Origin: a virus | Length of the DNA: 20,153 nucleotides | Reading direction: 5' to 3' (one strand) | IMG/VR virus record: IMGVR_UViG_3300042879_000452 | Span: 1 to 20,153 of that record | In this document: one piece after another, positions 14,150 to 19,784 of the stretch | Numbering within the stretch: the stretch's first letter is position 1 | Layout: every line of letters begins with the position of its first letter | The notes under the pieces: generated by a model | Seen by the model: only the letters and a program-made list of their open reading frames with translations | The model's database searches: none | What the model was told of the DNA's origin: nothing | Translations under genes and position numbers: made by a program

Positions 14150-14333
14150 CTTTTATAACTGCAAGTAAGTATTCAAGTAATTGTTTTCTGCAATCTCCAC
14201 ATCCTAAGTTAAAAGGTTTGTTTCCACTCTTTATAGCTATCTCATTTAGTTCAGTCCAGTTGAATGTTGGTGAGTAATTTTTACCCATTTGCTCCCATTT
14301 GATTAACTGCTCTGCTATGTTTTGTGGAATCAT
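14133..14333 (-). CDS. Small protein with a CxxC pair, unknown
   Basis: This 66-residue soluble protein is not recognised as a named family. It contains a CGDC pair (C45 and C48) in NLGCGDCRKQLLEYLL, which could bind metal or form a disulfide. It is preceded by helical, polar sequence. A single CxxC would need a partner for a complete zinc site, so it may act as a dimer. Start ATG 14333 overlaps the upstream stop as ATGA, and its end overlaps the DUF3310 start by 17 nt. The bases before the ATG read AGGTACTTATT, a degenerate version of the recurrent leader element, though here they are also codons of the upstream gene. Similar small CxxC proteins near phage packaging genes are common in my recollection. 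Confidence 0.65.
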   Translation of the reverse strand: MIPQNIAEQLIKWEQMGKNYSPTFNWTELNEIAIKSGNKPFNLGCGDCRKQLLEYLLAVIKDGSSK

Positions 14334-14554
14334 AATAAGTACCTATCGTTTATCTGTTCAATTAGTGATGCCAATAAAGCAAAGGTAAAAGGAATAGTTA
14401 ATAAATCAAAATAAGTTGTAAAATTAATTATCTGATAAATTAGGAAACTCCAATAAGTTAAACATAAAGGACAGGTAAATGGTTTTCTCATTAACCATTT
14501 AGGTTTAGGAATGTATTTAGCTATTATGTAGGTAGTTGCTAAAAGTTGTATCAT
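14330..14554 (-). CDS. Small membrane protein with CPLC motif, unknown
   Basis: This 74-residue protein has a hydrophobic N-terminal segment (about residues 2-14), a PFTCPLCLTYWSFLIYQI block (C28 and C31) leading into a second membrane segment, and a third hydrophobic stretch (about 52-66, TIPFTFALLASLIEQ). The FxCPLCLTYW pattern recalls small membrane proteins of the DUF1360 type, which carry a CxxC near the membrane, but I am not certain. It is the only clearly membrane-spanning product next to the glycosyltransferase genes. Its ATG overlaps the previous stop by one base (14554), and its stop overlaps the next ATG. A role with the sugar-transfer genes is possible but is only a guess from position. 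Confidence 0.65.
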   Translation of the reverse strand: MIQLLATTYIIAKYIPKPKWLMRKPFTCPLCLTYWSFLIYQIINFTTYFDLLTIPFTFALLASLIEQINDRYLL

Positions 14555-15249
14555 TAGTTTATTCCTTGTGCTTTAAATACTATTGTATTGTTTAATGGTT
14601 CATCTTCAGGTGCGCCATACATTAATATTTCATTGCCTGAGTGATATTTCATTTTAAGTTGATTTGCTATTATACTCCCACAAGTCATATCATGCCTATG
14701 TCCTTTGCATCTTTCATCTTCGCTTTCTGTTTTATCGTTATTATTCCATTTACCGATAAAGATACCATCTTTTGATGCTTGATGCCATTTGTTAAAAAAT
14801 TCAATAGCTGTTTGGTTTTCAAAGTTTAAACCTAATAAGCCAGCATTTCCGTACATTAACATATTTATGGCTTCATCTCTATTTATGTTAAAATAGTTTA
14901 AGCATTTATCGTTTGCCCATGTTCCAACATAGTGGCCAGCTTCTTGCATTAAATACCCATCTTTATCAATTAATTCAAATATGTGATCTATATTCTTAAT
15001 TACGTAAACAGATGAATCTAACCAAAGTATTTTTTTGTATCCTAAGTTTTTCACTCTTTCAAATATAAAAGTTTTAAAAGCATAAGGATTATTTGAATGT
15101 GATGGGCACGGTACTTGTGTTTCATCTGTAAAAATAAACAGTTCACCTTTAAAGTTATGTTCTTTTACACTATTTCTTAATCTTTGCGCTCCATTCGAAT
15201 AACTACTATTCGCAAAGCATATTATTGCGCATTCAGTAAAGTTTATCAT
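14554..15249 (-). CDS. Glycosyltransferase-like protein, GT-A fold
   Basis: This 231-residue soluble protein looks like a nucleotide-sugar-dependent transferase. The N-terminus gives a first strand (CAIICFAN, residues 7-14), followed by a helix and LFIFTDE. At 75-81, LWLDSSV carries a D-x-S (D78, S80), the place where GT-A enzymes hold metal and UDP or GDP sugar. NAGLLGLNF near 134-142 resembles the acceptor-side loop of GT8-like enzymes. The C-terminal part contains several His and Cys residues (CKGHRHDMTCGS near 181-192), possibly a metal site. It ends the seven-gene sugar island. The specific family, sugar and acceptor are unknown. Confidence 0.65.
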   Translation of the reverse strand: MINFTECAIICFANSSYSNGAQRLRNSVKEHNFKGELFIFTDETQVPCPSHSNNPYAFKTFIFERVKNLGYKKILWLDSSVYVIKNIDHIFELIDKDGYLMQEAGHYVGTWANDKCLNYFNINRDEAINMLMYGNAGLLGLNFENQTAIEFFNKWHQASKDGIFIGKWNNNDKTESEDERCKGHRHDMTCGSIIANQLKMKYHSGNEILMYGAPEDEPLNNTIVFKAQGIN

Positions 15250-15814
15250 AGTTAATGTATCTATAATGATAAATAGGTTCTTTTATTTCTACTTCTGTTT
15301 TAATTAAATTAAACTTTTTAAGTTCCATACAAAAGGCATAGTCTTCAAAATTACTTTTGTCTTCAAACTTTATACTCTTTGCTATTTCCTTTTTTATCGG
15401 TGTTATGTGATTAGTTGAGCGTAGATAAACTTCTTGCCCACTTGAGTAATCTGTTATGTAAGGATTATCTTTTGAAATGTACCATGCTCTTTTATCTCTT
15501 CCGTTTGTAGTCATAAATCCATTAATAGCCAATGCATCAGGTTCTTTTTCCAATGCTACTAATACTAATCTTATTGCATTTTCAAGTATTATATCATCAT
15601 CATCAATAAACCAAACATATTTACCCTTTGCGGAATTAATTAAATCATTTCTTTTTTGCCCTGTAGTTTTTGTTCCTACAGGTGCATGATCGCTAATTAC
15701 TTCTACTAATCCAAAAGCATTACACATATCTATTTGTCTATTTATTTCAGAATGTAACTCTAAAAATAAATTAGCACGCTGTGGTACTGTTGGAATAAGT
15801 ATTGATAGTATCAT
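15233..15814 (-). CDS. Glycosyltransferase family 2-like protein
   Basis: This 193-residue cytoplasmic GT-A enzyme begins MILSILIPTVPQRANLF, the usual GT2 first strand with a nucleotide-binding loop. It has KRNDLINSAKGKYVWFIDDDDII, where DDDD at 71-74 holds the metal and nucleotide sugar. NFEDYAFCMEL (about 154-164) supplies the later acidic residue typical of the ED motif of GT2 enzymes. It is short but has the whole catalytic core. No membrane segment is present, so it acts on a soluble or peripheral acceptor. It overlaps both neighbours (4 and 17 nt). The sugar and acceptor cannot be read from sequence. Confidence 0.8.
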   Translation of the reverse strand: MILSILIPTVPQRANLFLELHSEINRQIDMCNAFGLVEVISDHAPVGTKTTGQKRNDLINSAKGKYVWFIDDDDIILENAIRLVLVALEKEPDALAINGFMTTNGRDKRAWYISKDNPYITDYSSGQEVYLRSTNHITPIKKEIAKSIKFEDKSNFEDYAFCMELKKFNLIKTEVEIKEPIYHYRYINYDKLY

Positions 15815-16392
15815 GCAGTAAAAAATGTTAATTTTTTAAAGTTAGTGATAGTCATGAATTTATCCTGTGTTTTACGAAGTACGCAGTAAATATTCCAACC
15901 ATCAGTTGTGTTATTCATTGCAGGGTGCTCACCTATTTCAAGTATTTCATACCTATTAGTTTCGGCTAATTGTTTATAAAAATCTTCTGTAACATAATTA
16001 AATCCATGACCTGGCCAATTACCCGTTTTGGGATTCTCACTTATTATAAGTCCACCAACTTCGCAAGCATTATGTTTATTTAACCAACAATTGTAAAATG
16101 CCTTTGGATCATGTTTGCCATTTATTCCAACGTGTTCTGATGTACCAAAGTCAGTTACTACATTATATTTTTCTAATATTAGTTTAGTGCCTAAATCTAA
16201 TTTTAAAGCGTTATTCTCTTCGTTTAAATCTAAACAAGTATACTCACATTTTTTCTGTTTATAATACTTATCCGCATACGGTGATCCCTCATATTCGCAT
16301 GAGTATAAGTTTTGTGCTCCAAGTTCTAATACTTTGTCATTTGCTTTTACATACTTATTTAAAATAAGTAAACTAAAATCTGTTATTCCCAT
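15811..16392 (-). CDS. Class I SAM-dependent methyltransferase-like protein
   Basis: This 193-residue protein has a SAM-binding first motif VLELGAQ (residues 21-27), an acidic second strand CLDLNEENNALKLDLG (about 53-68), and DFGTSEHVG (81-89) in place of the usual post-II motif. The rest (GLIISENPKTGNWPGHGFNYVTEDFYK) resembles the substrate loop of small-molecule or sugar methyltransferases found in glycan clusters. Lack of DNA-type DPPY or NPPY motifs argues against DNA methylation. ATG 16392 shares a base with the stop of the upstream FkbM gene. Acceptor unknown; methylation of a sugar made by the neighbouring transferases is the natural inference. Confidence 0.7.
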   Translation of the reverse strand: MGITDFSLLILNKYVKANDKVLELGAQNLYSCEYEGSPYADKYYKQKKCEYTCLDLNEENNALKLDLGTKLILEKYNVVTDFGTSEHVGINGKHDPKAFYNCWLNKHNACEVGGLIISENPKTGNWPGHGFNYVTEDFYKQLAETNRYEILEIGEHPAMNNTTDGWNIYCVLRKTQDKFMTITNFKKLTFFTA

Positions 16393-16991
16393 TATATTCC
16401 TACTATTAAATTTTCGTTATTTACTAAAAGAGTTTTCATATTGTATTTTCTTAACTCTCTCATTATATCATTATACTGATGTCCATTATGCTCAATGCAC
16501 AAACATGAGCATCCTACTTCAATTAAATCTATTTGTTTTAAAATTGATAAATCGTACCCCTCAGCATCTATATTTATGAAGTCATAAAGTTGCCAATAGT
16601 TAAAATCAATCCAACGCATAGACTTTACTTTTGTTTCTTTGTATTCTGTTTTACTTTCCCACTTCTGTTTATCAGTAATTGAAAGTGTTGAAAGTAAATC
16701 ACTATCTCCATTGCCTAAATGTTCACCCGAATTGTAAAAAGTCATTTCACCATTAATATCTGAAATTGCTATATTATGTAGTTTAACTTTTTTATTATCT
16801 TTGTATAGTTCTTTAAGTTTATTGTAAGGTATTTCAGCAGGTTCAATTAATTCAGCACCCCATCCCAATTCAATTAATTTTCTGCTGTTTGATAAAGTAA
16901 TCCCATCGTTAGCACCAATGTCAAGTAAATTACCTATCTTATTGCCAAAGTAATCTAAAATTACTTGCTCCTCGTTGTTCTGACTATACAT
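16392..16991 (-). CDS. FkbM family methyltransferase
   Basis: This 199-residue protein fits the FkbM family of SAM-dependent O-methyltransferases, common in polysaccharide and natural-product clusters. The glycine-rich SAM motif LLDIGANDG is at residues 22-30, followed by the acidic strand LIEPAEIPYNKLKEL (48-62). IDAEGYDLSILKQI at 141-154 is the hallmark FkbM strand-helix (D142 and E144). SQNNEEQVILDYF at the N-terminus is also family-typical. It overlaps the upstream transferase by 8 nt and the next methyltransferase by 1 nt. The likely acceptor is a hydroxyl on a sugar; two methyltransferases side by side suggest a doubly methylated residue or two separate acceptors. Confidence 0.85.
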   Translation of the reverse strand: MYSQNNEEQVILDYFGNKIGNLLDIGANDGITLSNSRKLIELGWGAELIEPAEIPYNKLKELYKDNKKVKLHNIAISDINGEMTFYNSGEHLGNGDSDLLSTLSITDKQKWESKTEYKETKVKSMRWIDFNYWQLYDFINIDAEGYDLSILKQIDLIEVGCSCLCIEHNGHQYNDIMRELRKYNMKTLLVNNENLIVGI

Positions 16992-17682
16992 TGTAGTATT
17001 TTGGTGGATAAATTAATAAATGTTGCCCTATATCGTAGTTTCTTGCTTTTCTATCTTTAAATACTTTGTAATCACTATCCCAGTGTTCCTGACTTTCAGT
17101 TTTTCGGTATTGTTCATCATATTCAGCCAATCCCCATGCAGGATGCCTATGTGTAAATAATACTTTAAGGTCACCCATGTATTCATACTTACCAAGCATC
17201 CAAGCCACTTCTGTTGCCTCAACATCGCACCATAAAGATTTATAGTCAGGATGGTAAATATAATTGAAACGCTTATAGTAATCAACACCCATTATACTCA
17301 TAGTCATAATATTAGATTTTTGATTGCCATCTGAGTAATGTAGCACTTGGTCATAGTTTCCTCTAAAATCCTGCCTTATAATATTATCAAAACCACGTAT
17401 TTCAAATACCATATCGTCTGAGGTGTTAATCAGAATATCCCACCCCTCAAATAAGTCCATGTCACGATTAATAGCATCTATTTTATTCTTTGATAAACCT
17501 TTTGCTATGTAAACATTATCGTCATTATATTCAAAGTTTTTCATTGATTCATCGTCAGTATCAATACTTACAAGTATTGTGTAATTAAGTGAATTACAAT
17601 TTTTTATGATGTTATCAATAGATGCCTTTGCTTTTTCAGGTCTTGAGCGAGTTGCTAATTTAAAAAAAATGTGTTCGTTCAC
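16984..17682 (-). CDS. Glycosyltransferase-like protein, GT-A fold
   Basis: This 232-residue soluble protein has FFKLATRSRPEKAKASIDNI at the N-terminus, the first strand and donor loop of GT-A enzymes. It has an acidic motif DTDD (41-44) and ILINTSDDMVFE with SDDM at 88-91, the likely DxD metal and nucleotide-sugar site. Later it contains the aromatic/His-rich stretch TEVAWMLGKYEYMGDL and THRHPAWG, which may form the acceptor pocket. It belongs to the family of phage sugar transferases related to GT2, though the exact family is not clear. Stop and start overlap neighbours by 8 nt and 4 nt (ATGA). The substrate is not determined. Confidence 0.7.
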   Translation of the reverse strand: MNEHIFFKLATRSRPEKAKASIDNIIKNCNSLNYTILVSIDTDDESMKNFEYNDDNVYIAKGLSKNKIDAINRDMDLFEGWDILINTSDDMVFEIRGFDNIIRQDFRGNYDQVLHYSDGNQKSNIMTMSIMGVDYYKRFNYIYHPDYKSLWCDVEATEVAWMLGKYEYMGDLKVLFTHRHPAWGLAEYDEQYRKTESQEHWDSDYKVFKDRKARNYDIGQHLLIYPPKYYNV

Positions 17683-18335
17683 TCTTCAAAATTATAAAAG
17701 ATTTTAGGACTTTGCAATTCATTTATAAAAACTTTTCTATTTTCTTCAATTAACTTTGCTTTTTTGTATTCAGGTATACTTGATTTATGTTCAATGTTAT
17801 AATCCATAGCAAAAAGATATTCTTTAGTATTCTTTAATTGTTGATAAGGCGCAAAGGTAAAGCCTGCCCGGTAAATTCGATTAGAATAACCAGCATGCTC
17901 AAATCCATACTGCCCATAGTCAGAATTTATATAACCTACTTTATTAAGTACCTCTTTAGTTAGGAACATAAACACACCTCCGCAATCATTGTAGATTTCA
18001 ACTTCATCATGTACTATTATCTTATTATGTGATTTATTTAAGAATAGTAAGTGTTTCTGTTTTGAGTTAATAAAGTAATCTGCCCATCCCTCTTTTATAG
18101 GATAACAATCATCATCAAATAAAAAAATGTAATCGCAATCTTGCAAAGTTTTTAAATTTTGATTCTTTGAGTATCCAACTCCTTTGTAATGTACATCTTC
18201 ATGAATGTGTAAATGATAATTAGTAGGCTTAACTTTTTCAAAGTTTTCTATCCAGGTTTCAATGTATTCTTTTCTGTTTGGTGTTGTAGTTACACCAATG
18301 CCAATGCGAGGTCTTGTTTCCGTTTTTCTGTCCAT
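17679..18335 (-). CDS. Glycosyltransferase-like protein, GT-A fold with FDDDC motif
   Basis: This 218-residue protein begins with a first strand RIGIGVTTTPNRKEYIETWI (10-29), followed by YHLHIHEDVHYKGVGYSKNQNL and the donor motif FLFDDDCYPI at 71-80, where DDD should coordinate metal and nucleotide sugar. A later ECGG-like region (NDCGGVFMFLTKEVL, about 116-130) matches the acceptor-side loop of many GT2-like enzymes, and the C-terminus carries FAMDYNIEHKSS, a His-containing segment. It overlaps the upstream GT4 gene by 46 nt; the start could not be much later because the first strand begins at residue 10. The family is GT2-like, but the substrate cannot be assigned. Confidence 0.7.
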   Translation of the reverse strand: MDRKTETRPRIGIGVTTTPNRKEYIETWIENFEKVKPTNYHLHIHEDVHYKGVGYSKNQNLKTLQDCDYIFLFDDDCYPIKEGWADYFINSKQKHLLFLNKSHNKIIVHDEVEIYNDCGGVFMFLTKEVLNKVGYINSDYGQYGFEHAGYSNRIYRAGFTFAPYQQLKNTKEYLFAMDYNIEHKSSIPEYKKAKLIEENRKVFINELQSPKIFYNFEE

Positions 18336-19318
18336 TCTGTTAAGTTGTAGTTTTGGTTTGTGTATTCTGTTAATTTACTTGCATAGTCAATTCTCATTTG
18401 TTTACTTTCAGTTAATCGTTTAATTGCTTTAAACCAACCATTAAGATCGTGGTTATCTACAAATATTGCAGTTTCTTTTGGAAATATATTATAAGGTTTA
18501 ACATCTGAAACTATCACAGCGTTACCATAGGCTGATGCTTCAAGTAGTTTGATTTCAGATTTACCTTCTGTAAATATATTTTTTTCTAATGGTATTAAAC
18601 TAACATCAGTATAGTTGTAGGCTTTCCCATACTCATAAACAGATAAAGCATTAAGTCTCATGTATTTGCCATGATTCATAACAAACTCATATTCTTTGTA
18701 ATGGTCGTTTGGAGTGTAACCTCCTAAAACAAATTGAGCATTTAAGTTATGCCTTGCAACCTTTCGGATAGGTAGTTGAAGTATTTTAACATCCTGAACA
18801 TGATGAACTCCTGCAATATATCCAAATCTTACCAATTCAGATTTAATTTTATTCGGTTGCCATTGCTCATCTGTTAGGTCTAAGCAGTTAGGATATACCT
18901 TAACATTCTTGTTAAATGGCTTTATTTTGTCAGCAAGTATATTAGTTGTGCAAGTAACTATATCCACATTTCTAAGTATCTCTTCTGTTTGTTTTACTAT
19001 GTTAAACTGCTTATAAACTTTATGCAGAGCGTGAGTTGCAGGTAGTTGCCAGTAGTCATCAATATCAAATATAACTTTACATCCTAACCTTTTAAATCGG
19101 TTAATCTTTTCAAGTGAGTTACCATTTACATCAATTTCTCTTTGGTAAACTATGTATTGATAGTCTTTTACTACTTCATCAGGTATCACATCCAAGTCTT
19201 CATAAACATCACATTTAAAGTTTACAAGGTCTGAAACCTTTGTGTAAGGTACAATTAACCTATGGTAAGATAATCCGTTTAAGTTGCCTAAATTGGCTTT
19301 AATGAGAATTTTGATCAT
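18290..19318 (-). CDS. Glycosyltransferase, GT4-like (GT-B fold)
   Basis: This 342-residue protein has the two-domain GT-B layout. The N-terminal half includes SYHRLIVPY (17-25), the DIDDYW segment (85-90), and IVTCTTN (120-126). The C-terminal half starts around RFGYIAGVHHVQDV (164-177) and contains the donor-binding E-x7-E-like region EGKSEIKLLEASAYGNAVIVSDV (251-273 in parts). That pattern, with E251, E255 and E260, is the diagnostic element of retaining GT4 enzymes. It is the first enzyme gene of the island, starts at ATG 19318 and overlaps the sigma-like gene by 20 nt. It has no membrane segment. Donor and acceptor are unknown. Confidence 0.8.
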   Translation of the reverse strand: MIKILIKANLGNLNGLSYHRLIVPYTKVSDLVNFKCDVYEDLDVIPDEVVKDYQYIVYQREIDVNGNSLEKINRFKRLGCKVIFDIDDYWQLPATHALHKVYKQFNIVKQTEEILRNVDIVTCTTNILADKIKPFNKNVKVYPNCLDLTDEQWQPNKIKSELVRFGYIAGVHHVQDVKILQLPIRKVARHNLNAQFVLGGYTPNDHYKEYEFVMNHGKYMRLNALSVYEYGKAYNYTDVSLIPLEKNIFTEGKSEIKLLEASAYGNAVIVSDVKPYNIFPKETAIFVDNHDLNGWFKAIKRLTESKQMRIDYASKLTEYTNQNYNLTEWTEKRKQDLALALV

Positions 19319-19784
19319 TATGTTTCCGTTTTAATTTTTCTTTGATTTCTTTAATATCGTTTACTACTGTTCTGTAAGGGATTTTAGTCTTATTGCTTAA
19401 CTTAATAGCATCCCCACTTTCTAAATATAGTTTAAATAGATTCTGCTCATAGTAATCATTTTCAGTTTCTGGTGGCTGTTCTAAAAACTTAATTATACTT
19501 GTAAAATCAATTTCTTGCTGTTCTTCAACCAAAACATCACATTTGTAGTTATCTATGTATTGAACGTGATCCCTCATAAAGTTTTTTTTAAACTTGTTGG
19601 AGTGCCATGTTTTCCAAACAATAGCAGAGAAAAAGTGCTTCATGTTTCTGATTTCTGAAAGATTAAAGTTTTTCTCCACTATTATTAAGATGGCTTCTGA
19701 GTGCAATTCCTCCCACAGATAGTGATTCCTACAGATGTTTTTAGTTATCCTTTTATATAAGTTGGTATAAAGTTCATCTATCAC
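19299..19784 (-). CDS. Small RNA polymerase sigma-factor-like protein
   Basis: This 161-residue protein has the two-part shape of sigma-70-like factors. Residues about 3-60 (ELYTNLYKRITKNIC, then WEELHSEAILIIVE and FFSAIVWKTWHSNKF) resemble region 2, which contacts core polymerase and the -10 element. Residues about 117-152 (LYLESGDAIKLSNKTKIPYRTVVNDIKEIKEKLK) have a region 4-like helix-turn-helix. An acidic linker lies between. Similar small sigma-like proteins occur in Bacteroidetes phages. Placement at the head of the glycan/packaging/structural run suggests it may direct late transcription. The start is GTG 19784, because an in-frame TAA lies immediately before it and no other start is available before residue 48. 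A simple DNA-binding regulator is the alternative. Confidence 0.65.
   Translation of the reverse strand: MIDELYTNLYKRITKNICRNHYLWEELHSEAILIIVEKNFNLSEIRNMKHFFSAIVWKTWHSNKFKKNFMRDHVQYIDNYKCDVLVEEQQEIDFTSIIKFLEQPPETENDYYEQNLFKLYLESGDAIKLSNKTKIPYRTVVNDIKEIKEKLKRKHNDQNSH

Follow-up and report, generated by a model that had tools for sequence, protein, structure and literature searches.

In this study, we analysed a 20,153-nucleotide (nt) fragment of a viral genome (IMG/VR record IMGVR_UViG_3300042879_000452, positions 1 to 20,153; the whole stretch is hereafter called the window), and in particular a block of seven overlapping open reading frames (ORFs) on its minus strand (14554-19318), which encodes five glycosyltransferases (GTs) and two methyltransferases. 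The block consists of two parts: the first three GT genes form a conserved core, and the genes from fkbM to the last GT form an exchangeable cassette. The unusual feature of this island is that outer cassettes are exchanged on nearly identical phage backbones; the exchangeable distal half is also the main new point relative to a preliminary description of the same DNA. Judging by distant homologues, the block is probably a virion-glycosylation island with exchangeable glycotypes.

A conserved core followed by an exchangeable cassette

In transcription order, the block encodes a GT4-type enzyme, a GT-A enzyme (phrog_2456), a GT-A-like enzyme (phrog_14945), an FkbM-family methyltransferase, a class I methyltransferase, a GT2 enzyme and a retaining GT-A enzyme. 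Two scans of IMG/VR yielded 105 related loci. The comparison of the block among related phages, which the preliminary description had called for, showed that the same gene order (sigma-like gene, GT4, GT-A, GT-A, variable cassette, CxxC gene, terminases) recurs in dozens of contigs, and that the distal half of the block is exchangeable. The core was present in every contig spanning the locus, except for a deletion variant, L026. The cassette showed at least 8 architectures in 53 non-redundant contigs. Within the FkbM-GT2-GT6-like types, the methyltransferase slot is occupied by the enzyme found in the window, by a second FkbM, by a TylF protein (eight contigs), or by nothing. In other types, GT2 is diverged and stands beside unrelated genes, among whose products are methyltransferase-like and DUF5672 proteins.

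Exchange is best seen by comparing the window with contig L003. Measured per 100 bp and followed in the direction of transcription, identity is about 95-100% up to position 16993 (90% in the first, gapped block), where fkbM starts. It then falls to about 45-80%, or the sequences become unalignable, throughout the cassette, and it recovers to about 89-100% from position 14557, where the last GT gene ends. The exchanged segment thus spans positions 14557-16993, and both breakpoints fall at gene boundaries. At the protein level, the core is 99% identical, as against 65, 72 and 35% for FkbM, GT2 and the last GT, respectively. The converse case is provided by L016, in which GT4 is only 62% identical to that of the window and the cassette 87-94%. 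In L002, the first half of core GT 3 agrees with that of the window, whereas the second half is diverged; the C-terminal half of this protein thus seems to move with the distal cassette.

A simple rank correlation, computed on the pairwise identities of neighbouring genes, was not enough to separate core from cassette, the value for GT4-GT2 being as high as that for GT4-GT7; the claim of exchange consequently rests on specific discordant pairs and their breakpoints. L003 and L095, which come from the same metagenome, were treated as separate genomes, because three mismatches separate them in the 109 nt over which they overlap.

Two other variations were seen in the core region. In L026, a deletion (L026:185-760) begins midway through core GT 2 and runs to the end of a cassette methyltransferase, so that most of the block is gone; this is either a natural loss or an assembly error. 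In two other contigs, a gene for a 191-amino acid (aa) protein lies between core GT 2 and core GT 3 (L011:8899-9474 and L021:1472-2047); by inspection it is HNH-type endonuclease-like, with no Pfam match.

All seven genes are under strong purifying selection. The median ratios of non-synonymous to synonymous substitution rates (dN/dS) range between 0.067 and 0.156, compared to 0.055 for the large terminase subunit TerL and 0.118 for the capsid protein. The comparable values of these packaging and structural genes indicate that the enzymes are maintained, and low dN/dS in every gene, together with the recurrent gene order, shows that the block is more than a chance assemblage.

Enzyme families and predicted structures

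Core GT 1 (18290-19318, 342 aa) is a GT4-type, GT-B glycosyltransferase (Pfam Glyco_trans_1_4, 2.6e-8; phrog_7162, 3.4e-45) with relatives in IMG/VR; E. coli phages carry related proteins as well, for example alia gp45/gp44. Core GT 2 (17679-18335, 218 aa) is a GT-A enzyme with an invariant DDD motif (phrog_2456, 2.1e-39). Core GT 3 (16984-17682, 232 aa, GTG start) is GT-A-like, with an invariant SDD motif (phrog_14945, 4.1e-15); Pfam gave no match for it, and its Streptomyces phage relatives are at about 25% identity.

In the cassette, the FkbM protein (16392-16991, 199 aa) carries a conserved glycine-rich motif and belongs to PF05050 (4.6e-13), its score of 50.1 bits lying well above the curated cut-off of 22.7. 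The variable slot (15811-16392, 193 aa) is followed by GT2 (15233-15814, 193 aa), with an invariant DDDD motif and matches to PF00535 (2.9e-7) and phrog_14775 (1.5e-29). The last gene (14554-15249, 231 aa) encodes a GT6/GT8-like retaining GT-A enzyme, with a weak GT8 match (E 0.005). Within the phage collection searched, no relative of the window was detected at the nucleotide level, the last GT had no relative, and the FkbM protein had relatives only in an uncultured phage of 735 kb, present as two records and lacking annotation. Searches with the core GT 3, GT4 and FkbM profiles gave no convincing solved structure.

The two uncertain proteins were modelled. The protein of the variable slot, which has no convincing sequence-family match, is predicted to adopt a class I S-adenosylmethionine (SAM)-dependent methyltransferase fold (AlphaFold2, mean predicted local distance difference test (pLDDT) 70; Foldseek match to 2p8j, 4e-7; best Z 12.8). 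For the last GT, the model (pLDDT 79) shows the fold of retaining GT-A enzymes; its best matches, tied in score, are BoGT6a (Z 13.5, root-mean-square deviation 3.8 over 189 residues) and the capsid glycosyltransferase of PBCV-1 (Z 13.0). We describe this enzyme as having a GT6/blood-group-like predicted fold, with no GT6 match in Pfam. At the place where a clear DXD would stand, it has the motif W-x-D-S-[SPC], and it exists as two allele groups about 33% identical to each other. All seven ORFs lie at the coordinates given in the preliminary description, and its five GTs and two methyltransferases are all retained; the overlaps of 1-46 nt that it reported correspond to six measured overlaps of 46, 4, 8, 1, 4 and 17 nt.

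The block has constant neighbours on both sides, also on the minus strand. Upstream, and overlapping it by 20 nt, a small sigma-factor-like protein of 161 aa is encoded at 19299-19784 (identified by inspection, with no family match); it is a conserved companion, always directly upstream of the block, and may control expression of the block or of late genes. Downstream, with a 1-nt overlap, lies the small CxxC membrane-type protein already pointed out earlier (14330-14554, 74 aa), which forms the constant right boundary of the block and is not itself exchanged.

The phage and its complete relative

The window, which is part of the genome of a small tailed phage, carries terminases, tail genes, a tape measure, a protease, an SU10-like capsid gene and a portal. 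Among the relatives, the record behind L057 (34,335 bp) has ends that share an exact 123-bp overlap, which indicates a complete genome of about 34.2 kb. It is organized as follows: ERF, YqaJ, NinG and primase/helicase genes, the sigma-like gene, the GT block, the CxxC gene, DUF3310, terminases, and structural genes. The late position initially given to the block is thereby refined to the junction between the replication module, with its sigma-like gene, and the packaging genes. The proposed lack of export genes could also be checked on this complete genome, and it holds: no multi-spanning membrane protein was found there, and neither the integrase family PF00589 nor GtrA (PF04138) was detected in eight records, one of them this genome, the positive control giving a match in each search.

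We take this to be a freshwater-type phage with a probable Bacteroidota host, by comparison with similar phages and from a terminase homologue on one 3-kb contig of a Chitinophagaceae metagenome-assembled genome. That single contig is too weak a basis for naming a host.

Other genes were noticed in this family. A GIY-YIG/NUMOD1 homing-endonuclease gene lies right after the portal in the complete relative (L109:11259-11828) and is not there in L108. At the end of the replication module, L108:15294-16088 encodes a 264-aa cysteine-containing protein, to which no Pfam family in the scan could be attributed. Tail-fibre-like proteins are encoded at L109:13048-14196 and L108:5487-6947; the Pfam family Mtd_N, the N-terminal domain of the major tropism determinant, matched two scanned members, probably these.

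Virion proteins as the probable acceptor

The best indication on the acceptor comes from homologues in mycobacteriophages. In Che8 gp108, a GT domain at the N-terminus is fused to a TylF-type methyltransferase domain at the C-terminus, and it is the former that GT2 matched in profile searches (7.6e-31, with 28% identity over the domain). Sister phages of the window have TylF and GT2 as two distinct, adjacent genes, and their TylF is homologous to the TylF domain of Che8. The sister-phage TylF also matches (1.3e-12) the O-methyltransferase of Idergollasper, a cluster O phage in which an O-methyltransferase/GT cluster is located between portal and protease. GT2 further matched LittleE gp15 (8.4e-39), and core GT 2 is 31% identical to GTs of cluster F1 mycobacteriophages, with profile matches to Estave1 gp109 (3e-39) and LittleE gp18 (1e-25). 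In LittleE, the homologues of GT2 and core GT 2 share a cluster that immediately follows the major capsid gene. For Che8 and cluster O phages, glycans on the capsid and tail tube are reported in several papers that cite Freeman et al. 2023, Cell Host Microbe 31:1216 (PMC11256854, PMC12619734, PMC11600133, PMC10877033). Because some of the homologues come from such phages, virion proteins are the best-supported acceptor, most likely the capsid and/or tail tube of the phage itself. The occurrence of cassettes swapped on near-identical backbones, and of the same cassette on diverged backbones, also speaks for variation of the particle coat. A hydroxymethylase of the thymidylate-synthase type, a TET-associated GT, GtrA and a multi-spanning membrane protein, companions that DNA-directed or lipid-linked pathways usually require, were likewise not found in the complete relative.

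Under this proposal, the core GTs (GT4, then the two GT-A enzymes) would initiate a short glycan on the acceptor and then elongate it from nucleotide sugars of the host, and the distal cassette (FkbM, the second methyltransferase, GT2 and the GT6-like enzyme) would add and O-methylate outer sugars. The whole assembly would be cytoplasmic, and its benefit might be to mask particles from whatever recognises the virion surface. As exchange between phages would involve whole cassettes or the methyltransferase slot alone, particles made of the same proteins could carry different glycotypes, comparable to serotypes. The acceptor, the order of reactions, the nature of the sugars and the benefit are inferred.

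Several observations weigh against virion glycosylation. The mycobacteriophage homologues are at only about 28-32% identity, and the specificity of GTs drifts easily. Neither GT4 nor core GT 3 had a match among the Che8 or Idergollasper proteins compared. A search of structural proteins for a Ser/Thr-rich acceptor tail gave nothing decisive, the capsid protein ending in ...VVQYTNA. Finally, the benefit of a variable coat for an aquatic phage has no explanation so far.

The main rival is that the enzymes modify a host surface glycan, such as a lipooligosaccharide core or an O-antigen precursor, in the cytoplasm of the infected cell, which would block superinfection or prevent progeny from sticking to debris. 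FkbM, TylF, GT2 and GT4 enzymes are typically encoded in the surface-glycan clusters of bacteria, bacterial GTs for surface glycans are matched in the PDB by the GT2 profile, and cassette exchange resembles O-antigen variation. We nevertheless consider it unlikely: with no GtrA, integrase or multi-spanning membrane protein, the complete relative gives no sign of prophage-type serotype conversion, which relies on a GtrA flippase and a membrane GT carried by a prophage, and a 2025 paper suggests that virulent phages would probably find it difficult to modify abundant surface glycans completely. A further alternative, that the genes act on another cytoplasmic target (host protein, nucleotide or small molecule) or are several independent modification genes, draws on the fact that GT acceptors are unreadable from sequence and that FkbM and TylF families methylate small molecules. 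It appears still less probable, given that the genes are strictly co-linear, overlapping, under shared selection and exchanged as one block, which argues for a single pathway.

The least probable of the alternatives, and one that we disfavour, is that the acceptor consists of modified bases of the phage DNA, on which the GTs would assemble a glycan that protects against restriction. Phage GTs are known to hypermodify DNA, and there is a weak similarity, which did not reach the cut-off (3.9e-5), between the core GT 2 homologue of alia and TET-associated DNA GTs; this at the same time counts against a virion acceptor. Against DNA as the substrate, no thymidylate-synthase-type hydroxymethylase (PF00303) was found in 15 records including the complete genome, the control matching in 9 genomes, and a search of eight records for the TET-associated glycosyltransferase family PF20691 (threshold E 0.001) gave no match, its control being positive. 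The Tet_JBP oxygenase family PF12851 gave no match either, but its positive control was equally silent. Moreover, alia, which carries the GT4 and GT-A homologues, belongs to the phi92-like group of E. coli phages, reported to be restriction-sensitive (PMC8594841). The preliminary description had proposed a methylated oligosaccharide on the virion, the DNA or a host surface component, with preference for the first two: homology strengthens the virion, and DNA loses ground with the lack of hydroxymethylase and TET-associated GT.

A possible serotype system in a phage lineage

Beyond the acceptor, we tentatively suggest, as a possibility somewhat short of an even chance, that the block represents a population-level serotype system of a phage lineage, with a conserved virion glycan core and exchangeable cassettes for the outer sugars, drawn from a common pool (methyltransferase slot, GT2, blood-group-like GT6 cap). 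Recombination at gene boundaries would give near-identical phages different coats, presumably under selection by an agent recognising particles. Phage-encoded virion glycosylation has been reported so far for a few actinobacteriophages, and the block suggests similar chemistry in an unrelated, apparently widespread phage group. Its genetic layout, in which interchangeable outer cassettes are joined to a conserved core, is that of an antigenic-variation system and was not found described in the virion-glycosylation literature searched. If these virions are glycosylated, one may ask which agent in water recognises the particles so strongly that several coats are kept in circulation.

Comparison with known systems

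The island is real, maintained and modular, and if its acceptor is confirmed, it would be a variant of known phage virion glycosylation. With the Gtr serotype conversion systems of prophages, it shares phage-borne glycan modification of variable specificity; unlike them, it came with no GtrA, integrase or multi-spanning membrane GT in the records searched. The phi92/phAPEC8-like E. coli phages also have adjacent homologues of core GT 2 and GT4 (alia gp44-gp46), but these are large myoviruses in which the GT genes adjoin replication genes, and no FkbM was seen there. At the level of a single enzyme, the last GT resembles in its predicted fold the GT6 family (BoGT6a of Bacteroides ovatus, ABO blood-group transferases). 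It has lost the canonical DXD, bacterial GT6 enzymes being likewise devoid of a clear one; it differs from the family by the lack of a GT6 sequence match and by the tied score of the PBCV-1 capsid GT.

The closest parallels are found in mycobacteriophages. In the Omega-like cluster J phage LittleE, the homologues of GT2 (gp15) and core GT 2 (gp18) likewise stand in one cluster (gp15-gp21), which differs from the block by a kinase-domain gene, no methyltransferase in the annotated stretch and no GT4 homologue seen there. The modules of Che8 (cluster F1) and of Corndog-type cluster O phages are alike in having tandem GTs with an O-methyltransferase, and in their homologous GT2 and TylF domains. 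They comprise three or four enzymes, whereas the block of the window has seven, with FkbM and another class I methyltransferase in place of TylF. The cluster O genes lie inside the head operon, whereas the block stands upstream of the terminase. Lastly, the phage of the window has a different host group, probably Bacteroidota, and in its family the cassettes are exchanged.

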